Shown here: positions 47,224 to 61,950 of the stretch, one piece after another
Numbering within the stretch: position 1 is the stretch's first letter
Layout: each line of letters starts with the position of its first letter
Source of the DNA: Candidatus Gastranaerophilales bacterium
GTDB lineage: Bacteria > Cyanobacteriota > Vampirovibrionia > Gastranaerophilales > Gastranaerophilaceae
Length of the DNA stretch: 64,000 bases
NCBI GenBank assembly: GCA_944322545.1
Contig: CALUPF010000033.1
Span: 62,001 to 126,000, forward strand
Direction: 5' to 3'
Made by a program: the position numbers and the translations under genes
The notes under the pieces: generated by a model
Seen by the model: only the letters and a program-made list of their open reading frames with translations
Database searches by the model: none
What the model was told of the DNA's origin: nothing

Positions 47224-47736
47224 ATGGATTTGTTTAACGTAAGAGCAATTGAAGTTTCTAAACTAGCTATGGACGGCTTGGTTAAAAGACAATCTGCTAT
47301 CGCTTCTAATACAGCCAATGCAATGACTCCTGACTACCAAAGAAAAATGGTAGCATTCGAAGACCAGCTTCAAGAAATCATTGAAAAAGATGATATAAGA
47401 AGAGACTTGAGGATGAAAAACAGCCTTGCTTATGAAAATGACCACTCATATAAAACTGGCTATTCTCACGATTATAATCCAATGACTAAAAACATTGCAC
47501 AAAAACTTCCTCAAGAACAAATGATTTACATCCAACAAACACAAGCAGACACAAATGCTTATTCTCCTGAAGTTATAAGAGATGAACGTTGGATAGACTA
47601 CGGCAACGGCAACAACGTCAACCTTGAAGAAGAAATGATGGATATGGCAAAAGCCGGAACACAATATAATGTACTAGCAACAGTAGAAGGAAGATTTATG
47701 ACAAATCTTCTAGATGTGGTAAAAGGAGGGTCATAA
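47224..47736 (+). CDS. flgB: Flagellar basal-body rod protein FlgB
   Basis: 170 residues, longer than the usual about 130. N-terminal LAMDGLVKRQSAIASNTANAMTPDYQRK matches the Flg_bb_rod motif. The C-terminal helix region has NNVNLEEEMMDMAKAGTQYNVLATV with the conserved VNLExEM. Proximal rod subunit, exported by the flagellar type III apparatus. The extra length lies between the rod motif and the C-terminal helix. Three bases before flgC. Confidence 0.93.
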   Translation: MDLFNVRAIEVSKLAMDGLVKRQSAIASNTANAMTPDYQRKMVAFEDQLQEIIEKDDIRRDLRMKNSLAYENDHSYKTGYSHDYNPMTKNIAQKLPQEQMIYIQQTQADTNAYSPEVIRDERWIDYGNGNNVNLEEEMMDMAKAGTQYNVLATVEGRFMTNLLDVVKGGS

Positions 47737-47739
47737 TAA

Positions 47740-48246
47740 ATGAGTTTTAGCGCATTTGATATTTCAGGCTCAGGAATGTATGCCCAAAGAACAATGATGG
47801 ATAATATCGCATCAAATATGGCAAACGTAAATACAACAAGAAATCCTGACGGAACTCCTGGTGTTTACGTCAAAAAAAATGTAACATTCAAAGCTGTCTA
47901 TGCTGATAAATTAGGTTCAACAGCACCAGCATTTCCAGATGGGCAGCATCACGCATACTACAGCCCATCTAATGGAACGGTAGCTCTCAAAGGCGGCATA
48001 TCTTACGATGAAAAACAAATTTCTCAAGGTGTTGAAGTTGCAGAAATTACGCCATCAGCAGACCCTTATAAAACAATATATGATCCGTCTAACCCTGAAG
48101 CAGACGCTGATGGGTTTGTAACTTTACCTAACATAAATATCGTAGAAGAAATGGTGAACATGGTTTCTGCCTCACGTGCTTACGAAGCCAATGCAACAAC
48201 AGCAGAAACAACTAAAGGAATGATTTCTGCGGCTTTAAGAATTTAA
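47740..48246 (+). CDS. flgC: Flagellar basal-body rod protein FlgC
   Basis: 168 residues. FDISGSGMYAQRTMMDNIASNMANVNTTR is the FlgC/rod N-terminus; PYKTIYDPSNPEADADGFVTLPNINIVEEMVNMVSASRAYEANATTAETTKGM is the FlgC C-terminal signature. Rod subunit. GGAGGG ribosome site overlaps the end of flgB. Confidence 0.95.
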   Translation: MSFSAFDISGSGMYAQRTMMDNIASNMANVNTTRNPDGTPGVYVKKNVTFKAVYADKLGSTAPAFPDGQHHAYYSPSNGTVALKGGISYDEKQISQGVEVAEITPSADPYKTIYDPSNPEADADGFVTLPNINIVEEMVNMVSASRAYEANATTAETTKGMISAALRI

Positions 48247-48269
48247 AGTCTTAAAAAAGGAGTATAAAA

Positions 48270-48785
48270 TTGCAATTTAATCAAATAGCAAATAATTCAA
48301 TATCAAACTATAACAAAATATTTTCAAAAGAAATGGAATCCTTCAACATAAGCTCTGACAAAAATGGGATGACAGCTTTTGATAATGTTTTAAATCAACA
48401 AATAGATAATATGGCTCATACACCCCAAGGTCCAATTATAAACACAGGAATTCAAATGAATGTTGGACTAGAAAATATGGGTTTATCACCACTTGAAAGA
48501 ATAGACAATGCCCAAGGTGTTCAAGAAACACAAAAAAGAAGCAAATCTGCTGTAGAAAATATGGCGAATGATTTTGGGAAAGCCTTTTCAAACGGATTAA
48601 ACTCTGTTAATGATTCACAAAATGCAGCATATGAAGCAGCTGAAACTTTTGCAGCCGGTGGTGACATAAGCGTTCACGAAGTTATGCTTGCTTCTCAAAA
48701 AGCAAACCTTACTATGCAAATGGCGATTCAAATGAGAAACAGACTCGTCAATGCATATAACGAAATAAACAATGTACGAGTATAG
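48270..48785 (+). CDS. fliE: Flagellar hook-basal body complex protein FliE
   Basis: 171 residues, longer than the usual about 100. The C-terminal half is FliE: FAAGGDISVHEVMLASQKANLTMQMAIQMRNRLVNAYNEI. The N-terminal about 80 residues are polar and specific to this lineage. Links the MS ring to the rod. Starts with TTG at 48270 behind AGGAG. Order flgB-flgC-fliE is the ancestral one; fliF and downstream genes are absent here. Confidence 0.92.
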   Translation: MQFNQIANNSISNYNKIFSKEMESFNISSDKNGMTAFDNVLNQQIDNMAHTPQGPIINTGIQMNVGLENMGLSPLERIDNAQGVQETQKRSKSAVENMANDFGKAFSNGLNSVNDSQNAAYEAAETFAAGGDISVHEVMLASQKANLTMQMAIQMRNRLVNAYNEINNVRV

Positions 48786-54943: not shown

Positions 54944-56263
54944 TTGGCTGAGAAACTTAAAATTGTAGGAGGAAATGCACTACACGGTGAAGTATCAATT
55001 AGTGGTGCAAAAAATGCTGTTTTAAAACTAATGGCAGCTGCAATCTTAGCCAAAGGTGAAACAATCATACACAATGTCCCTGAATTAACGGACGTCCAAA
55101 TTATGCTTCGAGTAATTGAAGGTCTTGGCGTTAAAACAAAGTATAACAAAGCAAATAAAACTGTTGCAATAGATGCTACAAATCTAACAAGTATCACAGC
55201 AAAATATGAATTAGTTAGTAAAATGAGAGCTTCTTTCATCGTTTTAGGTGCACTTGTTTCAAGATGCAAAGAAGCAATTGTAGCTCTTCCTGGCGGTTGT
55301 GCAATAGGTGAAAGAAGAGTTGATTTCCATATCAAAGGGCTTGAAGCTTTAGGAGCAGAAATAAAAATCGAAAATGGTTATGTTCACGCTAAAGCACAAA
55401 ATCTAAAAGGCACAGATATCTACTTAGACATTCCATCAGTAGGTGCGACCGAAAACCTTATGTTAGCTGCAATTTTAGCGGATGGCGCAACTAGAATCCA
55501 AAATGCAGCACAAGAACCTGAAATTGTAGACCTTGCTAACTTCTTAAACTCAATGGGTGCTGACATTTCAGGAGCAGGAACATCAGAAATTGTGATCAAT
55601 GGTGTAAAACAAGAAGACCTACATCCTATTGAATACACAACAATTCCTGACAGAATCGAAGCTGGAACATACATGGCTGCAATTATTGCAACAAAAGGAA
55701 AAGGCATCATAAAAAATGTTTTTCCTTCACACCTAACTTTTTACAACTCAAAATTGATTAAAATGGGTGCAAATATAAAACTCATTGAACCGACTGTTAT
55801 TGAAGTTAGTTGTAATCAAAGATTAAATGCAGTAAATATTGTTACTCAGCCATATCCAGGATTCCCAACAGACTTGCAATCATTAGCTATGGCTATGCTA
55901 ACAACTGCAGATGGAGTCAGCATAATAACAGAAAGTCTGTATGAAAACAGATTCATGCAAGTTCCTGAATTAAGAAGAATGGGAGCTGACATTCACCAAG
56001 AAAGAAATCATGCTTTAGTCAGAGGGGTTAAATCTCTAAATGGAGCAAATGTAAAAGCCAGCGATTTAAGAGCAGGAGCATCTTTGATCATTGCAGCCCT
56101 TATGGCAGAAGGCGAAAGCGAAATTGAAGCACTTCATCATATCGACAGAGGTTATGAACTTTTTGAAACAAAATTTGCCAACATGGGGGCAAACATAGTA
56201 AGATACAATGATGATAGTGAAACTGTGGAAATAAAAAAGGGAAACGTTAATGCCTCAATATAA
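54944..56263 (+). CDS. murA: UDP-N-acetylglucosamine 1-carboxyvinyltransferase
   Basis: First committed step of peptidoglycan synthesis. 439 residues: GGNALHGEVSISGAKNAVL at 9-27, catalytic Cys119 in PGGCAIGERRVDFHIKG (fosfomycin-sensitive form), TIPDRIEAGTY, PYPGFPTDLQ, RAGASLIIAAL. TTG start at 54944 behind GGAGGAT. The end overlaps the repeat-protein gene by 14 bases. Confidence 0.97.
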   Translation: MAEKLKIVGGNALHGEVSISGAKNAVLKLMAAAILAKGETIIHNVPELTDVQIMLRVIEGLGVKTKYNKANKTVAIDATNLTSITAKYELVSKMRASFIVLGALVSRCKEAIVALPGGCAIGERRVDFHIKGLEALGAEIKIENGYVHAKAQNLKGTDIYLDIPSVGATENLMLAAILADGATRIQNAAQEPEIVDLANFLNSMGADISGAGTSEIVINGVKQEDLHPIEYTTIPDRIEAGTYMAAIIATKGKGIIKNVFPSHLTFYNSKLIKMGANIKLIEPTVIEVSCNQRLNAVNIVTQPYPGFPTDLQSLAMAMLTTADGVSIITESLYENRFMQVPELRRMGADIHQERNHALVRGVKSLNGANVKASDLRAGASLIIAALMAEGESEIEALHHIDRGYELFETKFANMGANIVRYNDDSETVEIKKGNVNASI

Positions 56264-56582
56264 AAGATGGTACGATCATGACCCGGTTTTAATGGAAGTC
56301 GTTGAATTACTGAGAAATTATCAAGATGAATTGAGAGCTCAGGCAGAGATTTTTTTGGCAAAAATAGAAGAAAAAGTGTCTAAAGAAACTATTGATAAAT
56401 TCTATGATATGGTGAAGCCTATTAATGGGAATCGCTGGTATGACAAAGATCCTGTTATTTCAAAAACTGTTGAACTATTAAGAGTTGTTCCACCTGAAAT
56501 ACAAAAATCAGCAGCTGAAAATTTCATCAAATCATTAGAAGAATTAGGCGTAGATAGAAAAGCTAAAACTGAAAACAATTAA
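56250..56582 (+). CDS. Unknown 110-residue protein with duplicated WYDxDPV motif
   Basis: Two copies of a unit of about 55 residues: RWYDHDPVLMEVVELLRNY at 6-24 and RWYDKDPVISKTVELLRVV at 62-80, each followed by a helical stretch (QAEIFLAKIEE / AAENFIKSLEE). No signal peptide. ATG lies within the last codons of murA with GGGAAA ahead, so translation is coupled. A regulator or adaptor of early cell-wall synthesis is a possible role by location only. Confidence 0.75.
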   Translation: MPQYKRWYDHDPVLMEVVELLRNYQDELRAQAEIFLAKIEEKVSKETIDKFYDMVKPINGNRWYDKDPVISKTVELLRVVPPEIQKSAAENFIKSLEELGVDRKAKTENN

Positions 56583-56587
56583 AAAAA

Positions 56588-57226
56588 CTATCTTTTTCTG
56601 AAGATTTGTGGTGCTTGTTTTTCAGTTACTTCTTTTCCACTGATAAAAAGTCTGTCATTTGGCGAAATTGAAATTTCTTCAAAAAAGTCCAACAACTTTT
56701 TTAAAGAGTTAACAACATCGGGCTTTTCTTGATTTGAACGCCACTCTAGCAACCTTAAAGTCCAAGTGTCATCAGCTTTTGAATATTTAAAATCAACTTC
56801 TCCGCCTTGCTTTGTAATCGTTTGAAACCAAGATAAATTTGAACACTTTTTTTGCAACATTTTTTTCATACATAAAAAGTTTTTAACTGATTTTTTTGCA
56901 AATTCTGTTTTTTTAGATCCAACTATCAAAGCGCTGTCAACTTGGGGAAATGAATCCTTTATAAAATCCACATACTTTTTAAACAAACTCGATTCTTCAC
57001 AATCCCAAAGATGAAAGCCCAAAGCAGTTAACTCATTTTTTGAGCTCAAGCCCCCACCAGTACAAGTTCTTACGTTAACAGTACTAAAAGTATCAGATTT
57101 TAAAATATTAGCATTTGATGCATCAGAAAAATAATGAATATACTTACCTTTTGGAATTTTATCAAAGGCTTTCATTCCTACAATATTTATTCTTGACTTA
57201 AAAGAAACATTAGAAAAATCTTGCAT
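56588..57226 (-). CDS. Protein with CheD-type Thr-Cys-His catalytic spacing
   Basis: 212 residues from ATG 57226 (an ATG at 57247 is also possible). Polar start VSFKSRINIVG. A core phrase TVNVRTCTGGG...LGFHLWD has Thr at -6 and His at +17 from Cys55 (Thr49, Cys55, His72), the same spacing as the catalytic triad of CheD glutamine deamidases. The following SFPQVDSALIVGSK and a later KYSKADDTWTLRLLEW fit an alpha/beta fold. Overall similarity to CheD is low; function is inferred, possibly an unusual deamidase or thiol hydrolase. Nothing for chemotaxis is nearby. Confidence 0.6.
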   Translation of the reverse strand: MQDFSNVSFKSRINIVGMKAFDKIPKGKYIHYFSDASNANILKSDTFSTVNVRTCTGGGLSSKNELTALGFHLWDCEESSLFKKYVDFIKDSFPQVDSALIVGSKKTEFAKKSVKNFLCMKKMLQKKCSNLSWFQTITKQGGEVDFKYSKADDTWTLRLLEWRSNQEKPDVVNSLKKLLDFFEEISISPNDRLFISGKEVTEKQAPQIFRKR

Positions 57227-57368
57227 AACAAGATAAAATATGAACATAAAAATTTTTGCTTACATTTTGAATCTTTATAAAATATTAATCTCAAACTACT
57301 TCCCAAAAACAGTTTTTTGAAATAGAATCTTATAATAATTTAATTAGACAATTCGAGGATTAGATAAT

Positions 57369-59216
57369 ATGTGTGGAATAGTAGGATATGTTGGTTCAAA
57401 ATCTGTTGTTGATATTTTGCTAAATGGATTAAGCAAACTAGAATACAGAGGCTACGATTCAGCAGGTGTTGCAATAAATTCTGAAGGAAAAATTAAGGTA
57501 TATAAAGCAGAAGGCAAACTCCAAAACCTTAAAGAACTTCTTGAAAAACACAATTCTGAAATAATTGAAACAACAGCAGGAATTGGACATATCCGTTGGG
57601 CAACACACGGTCTTCCTAACACTATTAATGCTCATCCACACACTTGTAACTGTGGAAAATTAGCAATCGTCCATAACGGAATCGTTGAAAACTACAAAGA
57701 ATTAAAAGCTGAATTAGTTAATGAAGGTTGTATTTTTAAATCAGAAACAGATACAGAAGTAGTCGCTCATTTAATTGCTCATGAATACGGAAAATTAAAT
57801 GACCTACCTAAAGCAGTAAGAGCTGCAGCAAAAAGACTCAAAGGGGCATATGCTTTATGTGTTATGCACCAAGACGAACCAAATATCTTAGTTGGAACAA
57901 GAAAAAACGCCCCACTAATTGTTGCATTAGGTCAAGGTGAAAACTACCTAGCGAGTGACTCACCAGCCATTATCCAATATACTAAAAGAGTTATTTACCT
58001 AGACGACGACCAAGTTGCTGTTTTAACACCATCTAGTGTCTTAATTACGGATATAGATGGAAAGCAAATTGATAAAAAAGAAGAAATTCTTCCTTGGGAA
58101 CCAATTGCTATGAGCAAAATGGGATATAAACACTTCATGCTTAAAGAAATCCATGAGCAACCTGATGTAATCAGAAACGTTTTATCAGGAAAACTTCCAG
58201 ATATTAACAAACCAATTGTTCTTGATGAAGTAAAACTTACAAAAGACGAAATTAAAAACCTAAAAAGAATTGAGATTATTGCCTGTGGAACCTCATTGCA
58301 TGCAGCAATGGTCGCAAAATATATCTTAGAAGCATTCACAAACATTCCTGTTGATGTTGAAGCTTCTAGTGAATACATCTACAGAAAAACTGTTACTGAC
58401 GCTAACACATTGGTAATAGGTATCTCACAATCAGGTGAAACTTCTGATACAATAACTGCTATAAGACAAGCAAAATCAGTCGGCTCACATGTTTTGATTA
58501 TCACAAACAGACCAGACTCTATTATGGCAAGAGAAGCTCACAGCTTAATTCCTGTAAACGCAGGCATAGAAGTTAGTGTTGCAGCTACAAAATCTTTCAA
58601 TGCTCAATTAATAGCACTTTATCTTTTCGCAATGTATATTGCAGAAATCAAAGGAACTTTTGATTTAGATAAAATCAAATCATTGAAACATGAAATGTTA
58701 TTGCTTCCACAAAAAATTGAAACAGTTCTTTCACACAAAGATGATGTTATTAAATGTGCAAGAGCATTTGCTTCATACAAAAACTTTATTTATATAGCTA
58801 GAGGAATCAACTTCCCAACAGCATTAGAAGGAGCTTTGAAATTAAAAGAAATCAGCTATATTAACGCAACAGGATATCCAGCTGGAGAACTCAAACATGG
58901 CCCTATCGCAATGCTTGATGAAACAATGCCTGTATTAGCAATTCTTATGCCAGGTAGCATAGTTTATGAAAAAGTTCTTTCAAATGCAGAAGAAGCAAAA
59001 GCAAGAAACGCAAGAATGATAGCGCTTACATCAGCAGAAGATAAACACTTAGAAGATGTATTTGAATACATTCTAAAAGTACCTGCTGTTGATGAATACT
59101 TATCACCAGTTATTGCATCAGTTCCATTGCAACTACTTGCGTACTATATTGCAGAATTTCTAGGTAAAGATGTAGATCAACCAAGAAACCTTGCTAAATC
59201 TGTTACGGTAGAATAA
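57369..59216 (+). CDS. glmS: Glutamine-fructose-6-phosphate aminotransferase
   Basis: Makes glucosamine-6-phosphate for peptidoglycan and lipopolysaccharide. 615 residues: catalytic Cys2 (MCGIVGYVG), HIRWATHGLP, HNGIVENY, then two SIS domains (ACGTSLHAAMV, GISQSGETSDT) and the C-terminal DQPRNLAKSVTVE. No glmS ribozyme core is apparent in the 120 bases upstream. Followed by a coupled small ORF. Confidence 0.98.
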   Translation: MCGIVGYVGSKSVVDILLNGLSKLEYRGYDSAGVAINSEGKIKVYKAEGKLQNLKELLEKHNSEIIETTAGIGHIRWATHGLPNTINAHPHTCNCGKLAIVHNGIVENYKELKAELVNEGCIFKSETDTEVVAHLIAHEYGKLNDLPKAVRAAAKRLKGAYALCVMHQDEPNILVGTRKNAPLIVALGQGENYLASDSPAIIQYTKRVIYLDDDQVAVLTPSSVLITDIDGKQIDKKEEILPWEPIAMSKMGYKHFMLKEIHEQPDVIRNVLSGKLPDINKPIVLDEVKLTKDEIKNLKRIEIIACGTSLHAAMVAKYILEAFTNIPVDVEASSEYIYRKTVTDANTLVIGISQSGETSDTITAIRQAKSVGSHVLIITNRPDSIMAREAHSLIPVNAGIEVSVAATKSFNAQLIALYLFAMYIAEIKGTFDLDKIKSLKHEMLLLPQKIETVLSHKDDVIKCARAFASYKNFIYIARGINFPTALEGALKLKEISYINATGYPAGELKHGPIAMLDETMPVLAILMPGSIVYEKVLSNAEEAKARNARMIALTSAEDKHLEDVFEYILKVPAVDEYLSPVIASVPLQLLAYYIAEFLGKDVDQPRNLAKSVTVE

Positions 59217-59859: not shown

Positions 59860-60696
59860 TTATGAGCTTATCAGTTGTAGTACTTCTTGTAAAAGCTGTT
59901 TGTTTGTTTGAATCAGTTTGTTTGATACATCAAGCTGCATTTTTGCTTGTTGATAATAAGAAATATTCGCTTTAAAGTCACAGTTTGACATTTCTAACAA
60001 ACCGCCTCTAACTTCACCACGGCCAATTACCGGACGTCCTGATTCTTCAGTTTCAATAAATTCGCCTTGTTTAGTTTCATAAAGGCCTTCAGGGTTATGG
60101 AAATTCATAATAGCTAATTTGTATAATGGCACTACATTTTTTCCGCCATCTGATTTACCATATAAAATTCCATCGCCTTTGAATTCAAATTCATCATATT
60201 TTCCAAGATATTTACCATTATTAGGGTCAATCCATAGCTTGATATTTGTAGTTGGGATATTCACAGCACCACCTTTGATACCGGTTTCAGCATAAATATC
60301 AGCATCAATAGGCTTAGTACCTTGCATAATTTCACCCTTATCGTTCAAAATATAACCTTGAACAGTATATCCGCTTGGGTTTTTATATACACCTTCTTTA
60401 TCAAAAGTAAATTCACCTAACCTTGAATAGACAATTTGCCCATCTGAACGACGCAAAGTAAAATATCCTTCACCTTCTAAAAAGACGTTTTCATTAGATG
60501 TACCAGGAGTAGATTTACCCTGTCCAACATTCTTGTTAAATCCATCAATTATCGCTGTGTTTAAAAAAGTTTTAAAACTTGCTTGAGTTTCTCTATACCC
60601 AGGAGTATAGATGTTTGTAAGGTTTTCTGAAATTGCATCCATCCAATCGGATGTAGCTTTTTGTGTATTTAGAGCGTTTACAAATGAATCATTCAT
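59860..60696 (-). CDS. Flagellar hook/rod protein of FlgE-FlgF-FlgG family
   Basis: 278 residues. The N-terminal rod motif is NALNTQKATSDWMDAISENLTNIYTPGYRET. The beta-rich middle has FLEGEGYFTLRRSDGQIVYSRLGEFTFDKEGVYKNPSGYTVQGYI. The C-terminal helical motif is MSNCDFKANISYYQQAKMQLDVSNKLIQTNKQL. Length favours a distal rod (FlgF/FlgG) or short hook protein; the exact role is not fixed. Three bases after the fliK-like gene. Confidence 0.88.
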   Translation of the reverse strand: MNDSFVNALNTQKATSDWMDAISENLTNIYTPGYRETQASFKTFLNTAIIDGFNKNVGQGKSTPGTSNENVFLEGEGYFTLRRSDGQIVYSRLGEFTFDKEGVYKNPSGYTVQGYILNDKGEIMQGTKPIDADIYAETGIKGGAVNIPTTNIKLWIDPNNGKYLGKYDEFEFKGDGILYGKSDGGKNVVPLYKLAIMNFHNPEGLYETKQGEFIETEESGRPVIGRGEVRGGLLEMSNCDFKANISYYQQAKMQLDVSNKLIQTNKQLLQEVLQLISS

Positions 60697-60698
60697 TT

Positions 60699-61457
60699 TT
60701 ACTCTCCTTTATCTTTTCTTTGTTGTTGTCTTTCACGATTTTGATTGTTTTGATTTGATTGCCTGTAAAACAAGTCATTGTATGGCAAATTTTGATCATC
60801 AAATCTTTGTTTAAGATATCCTATATTGTTTCTTAAATAAGCTTCTACTGCCTTATCTCCAGGAATAAACTCAGCAGAAACCTTACCTTTTGTATCTACT
60901 TTCAGAATAACTGAGACATTATTATCGAAGTCTATTCTTACCGGCTTTTGATCAGTATAAGCTTTGTTGATAAGATCTGTGAGAACCTTGGATGTTTGCT
61001 GAGCTTTGTATGTTGGCCCAACTTCATCAGCAAATTTGATCAAGTTTGTTTTGTCGCCGTTTTGTTGAACTGCAAACTGTTTATTTTCAACAAGATCAGC
61101 AAAAAACTTTGCATCTTCTTTTGAAATTTTTAAAGAATCATAATTGTACATTGATTTCAAATTTTTGAGACTAGAAACTGTATCAAAACCGAATTTATTT
61201 ATATAGTCCTCATTCAGCATGTTCATATTTTGTTGATTTTGAACAGGCTGTTCGATGCTGACTTTATCAGTACTTTTAGGTTCTTCTAACAATTTTTGGA
61301 ATTCTCCTTTGTTTTCACCTTCATTTGTATCTTTTTTTTCTTCTGTTTTAGATGAAGATGAAACTTTTTCAGAATTTTTTATATTATTTTTTTCACTAAC
61401 TTGCGTTGTTTGTTGTGTTTCTGTTGCTGTTGGAGTCTGGGTAGTTGAAATATTCAT
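60699..61457 (-). CDS. FliK-like hook-length control protein
   Basis: 252 residues. Ser/Thr/Gln/Lys-rich disordered N-terminus of about 75 residues. A C-terminal domain (about 170-240) has KPVRIDFDNNVSVILKVDTKGKVSAEF then AVEAYLRNNIGYLKQRFDDQNL, matching the Flg_hook core (valine-rich strands, then LRxNLxxLKxxLxxxGL). Shorter than typical FliK (about 350-450). The start overlaps fliJ by 62 bases. Placement between fliJ and a hook-family gene supports the call. Confidence 0.75.
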   Translation of the reverse strand: MNISTTQTPTATETQQTTQVSEKNNIKNSEKVSSSSKTEEKKDTNEGENKGEFQKLLEEPKSTDKVSIEQPVQNQQNMNMLNEDYINKFGFDTVSSLKNLKSMYNYDSLKISKEDAKFFADLVENKQFAVQQNGDKTNLIKFADEVGPTYKAQQTSKVLTDLINKAYTDQKPVRIDFDNNVSVILKVDTKGKVSAEFIPGDKAVEAYLRNNIGYLKQRFDDQNLPYNDLFYRQSNQNNQNRERQQQRKDKGE

Positions 61458-61950
61458 TTATATCAGTTCCTTCACTGTACTGGGAATTTTTTAATTGTTC
61501 AGCGAGTTCTTCTTCTTGCTGTGCTTTTGTTTTTGCAAAATATTTTTGAATAGCAACTTCAGAAAGTCTTTTTAGTTCTAATTGTTTTTCTTCTTCTAAA
61601 TATGCTTCACGACTTCTTTCTTTATGCTTTTCTAGAACTTTAACGGCTTTTTCTAATTCACGAAGTTTGTCTTTTTCTATTTCTAATGCTTTTAAAGCTT
61701 CTTGCTTATCCGCTTCTAGTTGTTCTCCTTTAACATACAAATGTTTTAGAAAATTGTCATAAGCCTCATACATCGTAAAATCTGCCTGTCGCATATTTAT
61801 TCTTGTTGTTGCAATTTCTTTGTTATTTCGGTCAATTAATCCTTCTATTTTCAACACCAAAGCCTGTGCATTACGTACATTTTGAAGTTGTTCTTCTTTT
61901 TTTCTGATTCTGAAATCCAGAATTTTTTGTAATCTATAACGAAAAGGCAT
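61396..61950 (-). CDS. fliJ: Flagellar export chaperone FliJ
   Basis: 184 residues, nearly all coiled coil. MPFRYRLQKILDFRIRKKEEQLQNV is the FliJ N-terminus; a C-terminal polar tail follows. FliJ sits in the export ATPase ring and carries chaperones. The 3' end lies inside the fliK-like gene in another frame. Confidence 0.85.
   Translation of the reverse strand: MPFRYRLQKILDFRIRKKEEQLQNVRNAQALVLKIEGLIDRNNKEIATTRINMRQADFTMYEAYDNFLKHLYVKGEQLEADKQEALKALEIEKDKLRELEKAVKVLEKHKERSREAYLEEEKQLELKRLSEVAIQKYFAKTKAQQEEELAEQLKNSQYSEGTDINEYFNYPDSNSNRNTTNNAS

Follow-up and report, generated by a model that had tools for sequence, protein, structure and literature searches.

A CheD-like predicted fold and a conserved Thr/Ser-Cys-His triad in a family of putative cysteine amidohydrolases of Gastranaerophilales

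We asked whether a protein of 212 residues that shares its Thr-Cys-His spacing with the deamidase CheD is a true relative of that enzyme, and what such a relative might do outside chemotaxis. The protein is encoded in a stretch of 64,000 nucleotides (the window) of contig C33 (CALUPF010000033.1, positions 62,001 to 126,000) of the 1.92-Mb genome of a Candidatus Gastranaerophilales bacterium (G000). Gastranaerophilales are a non-photosynthetic gut lineage of the cyanobacterial phylum. The gene, its putative active-site codons and its N-terminal motif lie in the window as follows.

56588..57226, minus strand: predicted CheD/NTAN1-like cysteine hydrolase gene, 212 amino acids, stop codon TAG at 56588-56590 (from the list of open reading frames)
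57080..57082, minus strand: codon of Thr49, putative third member of the triad (Thr or Ser in 72 of 73 members)
57062..57064, minus strand: codon of Cys55, putative nucleophile (Cys in 71 of 73)
57011..57013, minus strand: codon of His72, putative general base (His in 71 of 73)
56783..56785, minus strand: codon of Tyr148 (invariant in alignments of 40 and 52 members)
57188..57208, minus strand: VSFKSRI motif near the N terminus, residues 7-13, in which F, S and I hardly vary within the family

The open reading frame (ORF) 56588-57226 on the minus strand is intact and reads TVNVRTCTGGGLSSKNELTALGFHLWD. The ATG at 57226 best fits the homologues, which start shortly before an ISFxSxI motif, and the protein translated from it begins MQDFSNVSFKSR; another ATG lies in frame upstream, at 57247, but is the less probable start. 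The ratio of nonsynonymous to synonymous substitution rates (dN/dS) is 0.04-0.06 in pairs of close homologues, and the product is therefore a real, constrained protein under purifying selection.

The original prediction had pointed to a Thr(-6)-Cys-His(+17) spacing as in CheD, and residues T49, C55 and H72 indeed have it. The Thermotoga maritima CheD chain shows the identical -6/+17 spacing (TLGLGSCVAV...AHV in the tool's alignment); the published triads are Thr21/Cys27/His44 in CheD and Ser69/Cys75/His92 in NTAN1 (PMC7022378). By itself the spacing is weak evidence, as 2 of the genome's 643 ORFs contain the bare pattern, and so do 0.16% of shuffled versions of the protein. Since the pattern is only moderately rare, other evidence is needed, and it is conservation that makes it real. 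In a 53-row alignment the Cys is kept in 52 rows, the His in all 53 and a Thr or Ser at -6 in 52. Among 73 members, divergent subfamilies included, the Cys and the His, whose conservation in orthologues had been proposed as a test, are each retained in 71, and the -6 position is Thr or Ser in 72 (Ser in 21). The three positions are thus held nearly everywhere while overall identity drops to 21-25%. The exact +17 distance is not shared by the whole family: among the 53 rows, Cys and His are 15 residues apart in 17 members, 16 in 24 and 17 in 11. Further invariant or nearly invariant positions are F9, S11, I13, a Gly of a GG or GS pair, a Ser in the next helix, Tyr148 and an Asp near the C terminus. 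The Cys or the His has been lost in 3 of the 73 members (L076:799-1377, L144 and L148); the L144 copy has its His changed, the L148 copy both residues. L076:799-1377 (minus strand) adjoins L076:1349-1993 (minus strand) in tandem; it lacks the Cys and the Thr/Ser at -6, keeps the His, and is possibly a decaying copy or a pseudo-enzyme.

The predicted structure points in the same direction. The AlphaFold2 model of the 212-residue protein, built from a 13-row alignment, has a predicted local distance difference test score (pLDDT) of 93.5 and a predicted template modelling score (pTM) of 0.90. Foldseek returned CheD (2f9z_C; E 1.9e-4, prob 1.00) as its best match and the sole one below 1e-3, followed by NTAN1 and YfiH, with CNFy further down. 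VIA-align gave Z scores of 11.1 for CheD (132 residues, 2.8 Å), 9.6 for NTAN1, 6.9 for YfiH and 6.8 for CNF1; the best chain outside the fold class reached 4.3. A second AlphaFold2 model, made for a divergent subfamily from that subfamily's alignment (pLDDT 88.0), again matched CheD (E 5.6e-6, Z 11.4), followed by NTAN1 (9.6), YlmD (6.9) and BLF1 (6.3). A CheD-like fold, which the original prediction had named as a test, was therefore confidently predicted, in two independent models. Judging from the aligned ranges and the sequence, T49, C55 and H72 would coincide in space with the triad of CheD.

Sequence comparison did not reach CheD directly. For the 212-residue protein neither PF03975 (CheD) nor PF14736 (NTAN1) gave a match even at E 10, matches to DUF3189 and RusA in Pfam and NCBIfam were at chance level only and were rejected, and PDB searched by sequence, with the single protein or a 40-row profile, gave nothing relevant. 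An hhalign comparison of profiles with nine true CheDs of the order was not significant; these CheDs, which occur in other families of the order, match PF03975 at E 1e-19 to 1e-33, with up to 113 bits. The PF03975 search of the order revealed, however, a second CheD-like family, A2, with the following members.

L054:630-1409, plus strand: A2 member with EF-hand-like N-terminal part
L055:1073-1849, minus strand: A2 member with EF-hand-like N-terminal part
L056:1097-1867, minus strand: A2 member with EF-hand-like N-terminal part
L058:300-1628, minus strand: A2 member without EF-hand

A2 carries a C...AH motif and GG, and matches the CheD profile (prob 98.3, E 1.5e-14) and the CheD chain 2f9z_C in PDB (E 1.2e-12); its EF-hand members also score weakly with PF14736 (3e-5 to 1e-4). 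The profile of the window protein's family scored 37.4 against A2, a significant link, since none of 200 column shuffles exceeded 17.8 and the reversed alignment reached 13.0; the Thr, the Cys and the glycine pair are in register between the two families, in line with a shared triad. A2 differs from the family in the EF-hand part of three of its four members, in its direct similarity to CheD and, weakly, to NTAN1, and in a GPC loop in place of the family's TCTGGG. The homology of the window protein's family to CheD is supported because of the fold together with this intermediate family. As far as their flanks were read, A2 genes are not beside chemotaxis genes, and A2 may be a calcium-regulated deamidase.

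Compared with CheD, the family shares the fold, the Thr-x5-Cys...His arrangement (with identical spacing in the window protein) and a glycine pair, GG or GS, that follows the second unit of strand and helix. It differs in an identity of only 11-14% over the fold, in an extra N-terminal strand with ISFxSxI, in another C-terminal part, in a Cys-His gap of mostly 15-16 residues, and in genomic setting. NTAN1 (PF14736; 6A0E) likewise shares the fold and a Ser/Thr-x5-Cys...His triad, and has in addition an appended C-terminal specificity region; the VIA-align superposition of the first model on NTAN1 ends at model residue 155. The glutamine deamidases CNF1/CNFy and BLF1 belong to the same fold class (Z about 4-7) and have a Cys-His active site, in BLF1 with Thr as the third residue (PMC7022378), but they match the structure far more weakly than CheD or NTAN1 and no sequence similarity to them was detected. 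BLF1 and CNF1 also have an active-site Tyr that NTAN1 is without (PMC7022378), and the invariant Tyr148 may be its counterpart. YfiH/YlmD (DUF152) share the fold class at Z 6-7, while the family has no conserved second zinc-site His. The conserved Cys and His and the two CheD-like models thus support the proposal that the family is a new branch of the CheD/CNF-type fold. It is a lineage-expanded branch of a known enzyme fold, and likely works like a deamidase.

We consider the protein to be probably a cysteine amidohydrolase of the CNF1/YfiH-like fold, putatively active outside chemotaxis, with CheD as its nearest solved relative; it would be the founder of a superfamily specific to this lineage. 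Deamidase chemistry is quite probable, and so, with a little less assurance, is a substrate that is a protein from outside chemotaxis. If the mechanism resembles that of CheD and NTAN1, Cys55 would attack, as the nucleophile, the carboxamide carbon on a protein, while His72, oriented by Thr49, would serve both as base and as acid; the hydrolysis would turn Gln or Asn of the protein into Glu or Asp. In NTAN1, C75A and H92A are dead and S69A is about five-fold slower (PMC7022378). The original prediction spoke of a glutamine deamidase; glutamine is a candidate substrate residue, given that NTAN1, an enzyme for N-terminal Asn, falls little short of CheD as a structural match (Z 9.6 against 11.1). 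The target would most likely be a fast-changing protein or one that varies from host to host, perhaps reached after export. Some points weigh against this view of a deamidase that may be exported. A shared fold shows no function, and the fold class also holds the zinc-binding YfiH; the direct profile score against true CheD, 15.2, lies within the shuffled range; residues 11-15 form part of a strand in the model, and the motif they overlap may be simply structural; and the support for export is indirect.

Several other explanations have to be weighed against a protein deamidase. An amidohydrolase like human NTAN1, modifying an N-terminal Asn (or Gln) as the first residue of peptides or proteins, would account for NTAN1 being the second-best fold in both models, for the Ser at -6 in 21 of 73 members (NTAN1 has Ser there; PMC7022378), and for the PF14736 scores of the EF-hand members of A2. 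CheD, however, scores higher in both models, the window protein itself has no PF14736 match, and the specificity of NTAN1 comes from the appended C-terminal region, which covers the active site (PMC7022378); moreover, the family's invariant Tyr, known from the alignment alone, corresponds to nothing in NTAN1 if it is the Tyr of BLF1 and CNF1. We regard an NTAN1-like enzyme as unlikely. About equally unlikely, or slightly more so, is the same fold with other or no chemistry, as in a YfiH/YlmD-like zinc enzyme, a protease, a transglutaminase or a binding protein: YfiH is in the same fold class and three members have lost Cys or His, but the Cys, the His and the Thr/Ser persist at very low overall identity, and the 40- and 52-member alignments contain one invariant His only and no conserved Cys-His-His zinc site. 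The YfiH-like zinc enzyme was rejected on the grounds that just one His is conserved.

That the protein is a diverged CheD deamidating the single chemoreceptor of the lineage would agree with CheD as the nearest solved fold and with the methyl-accepting chemotaxis protein (MCP) and CheW proteins present in every one of the 23 genomes of the genus. Against it, CheC, a typical though not universal companion of CheD, like chemotaxis context, is absent from all 23 (controls were positive); the gene occurs in part of the genus only, and MCP in all of it; no chemotaxis gene was found in the flanks read, as the original prediction had stated; and the true CheDs of the order score strongly with PF03975, which gives no protein match in the source genome. 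That it is CheD proper is not supported, and we find the diverged CheD very unlikely. A search for CheR in the genus gave mixed, mostly weak matches and was uninformative. A single chemosensory cluster (G000:C35:13033-17898), with one MCP, encoded at G000:C35:15823-16341, a tandem CheW protein and a CheW-domain protein of about 1050 residues, lies on a contig other than that of the CheD-like gene and has counterparts in all 23 genomes. The last explanation, coincidence of the -6/+17 spacing in an unrelated protein, has the two occurrences of the bare pattern in the genome and the variable Cys-His distance on its side; the three conserved positions and the two independent CheD-like models refute it for practical purposes, and its chances are very small.

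A search of 59 relatives found 12 full-length homologues in several genera and families, and one decayed fragment. A profile search of the order gave matches in 167 of the 383 genomes sampled. A broader profile, run on 386 genomes of the phylum, picked out 102, of which a single one came from outside the order, namely from another order of the same class. Scanning a contig collection with the single protein gave no relatives, and with a group of closer homologues 41 loci, mostly from Candidatus Gastranaerophilales; in viral contigs no family member was found. The family is therefore almost confined to Gastranaerophilales, where it is often multi-copy. In one subfamily of about 355 residues (L129:482-1537, L130:786-1880, L131:959-2023 and L132:1091-2158), the CheD-like domain stands behind an extra N-terminal region of about 150 residues.

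Within the genus, copies of the CheD-like protein at the same murA/glmS locus share just 41-48% identity, compared with 88-93% for murA and glmS themselves. Its nearest homologues (58%) come from another genus (g10) and another locus, and in the tree the g10 copies stand beside the window copy, nested among copies of the same genus as the window (g1) with 100% support. The gene is patchy, being present in some members of the genus only, and in G001 just the last 53 codons are left at this locus, as a decayed remnant. The divergence at the locus, the nesting and the remnant together indicate that the gene diverges fast, moves between genera and gets lost, yet is constrained in the short term. 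Such a pattern would be typical of accessory genes facing a changing partner. The family, which Pfam and NCBIfam do not see here, is a large new branch of a small enzyme superfamily with members in chemotaxis, in the N-degron pathway and among deamidating toxins. Its carriers belong to a widespread gut lineage whose action on neighbours or host is little known. Its conserved triad makes activity directly testable with one Cys mutant.

The VSFKSRI motif is a candidate for either an export signal or the first strand of the fold; by eye, no start like a signal peptide was apparent. The protein may be an effector or an envelope enzyme, as the original prediction had suggested. The original prediction had likened this start to those of other proteins of the lineage. 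Similar motifs are indeed commoner near the N terminus of lineage proteins than elsewhere (the pattern [ILV][ST]F[KRGT][GS] within the first 40 residues was observed in 11 lineage proteins against 0.77 expected), but three of the 11 are family members, at least one is a doubtful ORF and the pattern was tuned after looking, which leaves this part of the prediction as a lead only. Motifs resembling [VI][ST]F[KRG][GS] stand near the N terminus of several short unrelated proteins: L104:1824-2126, L104:2204-2536, L109:13930-14292, L115:15564-15878, L116:6436-6846, L165:4218-4616, L165:11936-12346 and L166:7753-8196. A lineage-wide export or sorting tag is possible. The motif is probably not limited to effectors, as ISFGHA, which resembles it, is found in the long N-terminal extension of a starch/glycogen-synthase-like protein (L153:9303-11717, minus strand). 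The gene for this protein adjoins one (L153:7696-9153, plus strand) for a 486-residue protein in which an unrelated N terminus is followed by the soluble cytoplasmic half of FlhA/SctV alone (FHIPEP positions 321-653).

A possible route of export is a second type III apparatus of the lineage, comprising YscJ/FliF, FliH/SctL and FlhA/SctV, with FliP/Q/R-like genes elsewhere, at the following positions.

G000:C3:22715-24691, plus strand: second type III apparatus
L152:9200-14749, plus strand: second type III apparatus
L164:7245-11286, plus strand: second type III apparatus

The source genome encodes, besides a flagellar FHIPEP protein, another of full length, whose gene shares an operon with YscJ/FliF and FliH/SctL. 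At a separate locus, genes resembling FliP, FliQ and FliR are clustered with a FliM/N-like ORF (FliP, FliR and FliM/N were assigned by eye). G060, G064 and G034, the three checked f1 genomes with one FliQ match each, carry FliQ in the second type of locus. In G060 and G034, three of the short motif proteins are encoded no more than a few kb from the second type III locus. Co-occurrence with FHIPEP was rejected as an export test, being uninformative with FHIPEP proteins in all 383 genomes of the order. Nothing relevant on type III secretion in this order was found in the open-access literature. Export of the CheD-like protein by the apparatus is doubtful. Less likely still is the fuller proposal that this second, non-flagellar apparatus, kept throughout the order even where the flagellum appears lost, exports the multi-copy CheD-like deamidases by an [ILV]SF.[SG] tag common to lineage proteins. 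If it were true, this would be one more recruitment of the CheD/NTAN1 fold for a secreted effector, here in a lineage of common gut commensals.

The CheD-like gene is flanked in the window by the following genes.

54944..56263, plus strand: murA-like gene (named by eye), bordering the locus on the left within the genus
56250..56582, plus strand: conserved small protein of 110 amino acids, convergent neighbour, 5 bp from the CheD-like gene
57369..59216, plus strand: glmS-like gene (named by eye), right flank, divergently transcribed

The end of murA overlaps the start of the small-protein gene, and the arrangement of murA, small protein and glmS is conserved solely within the genus. In the flanks read, no partner gene that would explain the function is common across genera, and a scan for a promoter and a terminator at the locus gave no clear signal. 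Flagellar-type genes, recognized by eye, are found on both sides of the locus: FlgB-, FlgC- and FliE-like genes at 47224-48785, and hook, FliK- and FliJ-like genes at 59860-61950, which begin about 650 bp past glmS.
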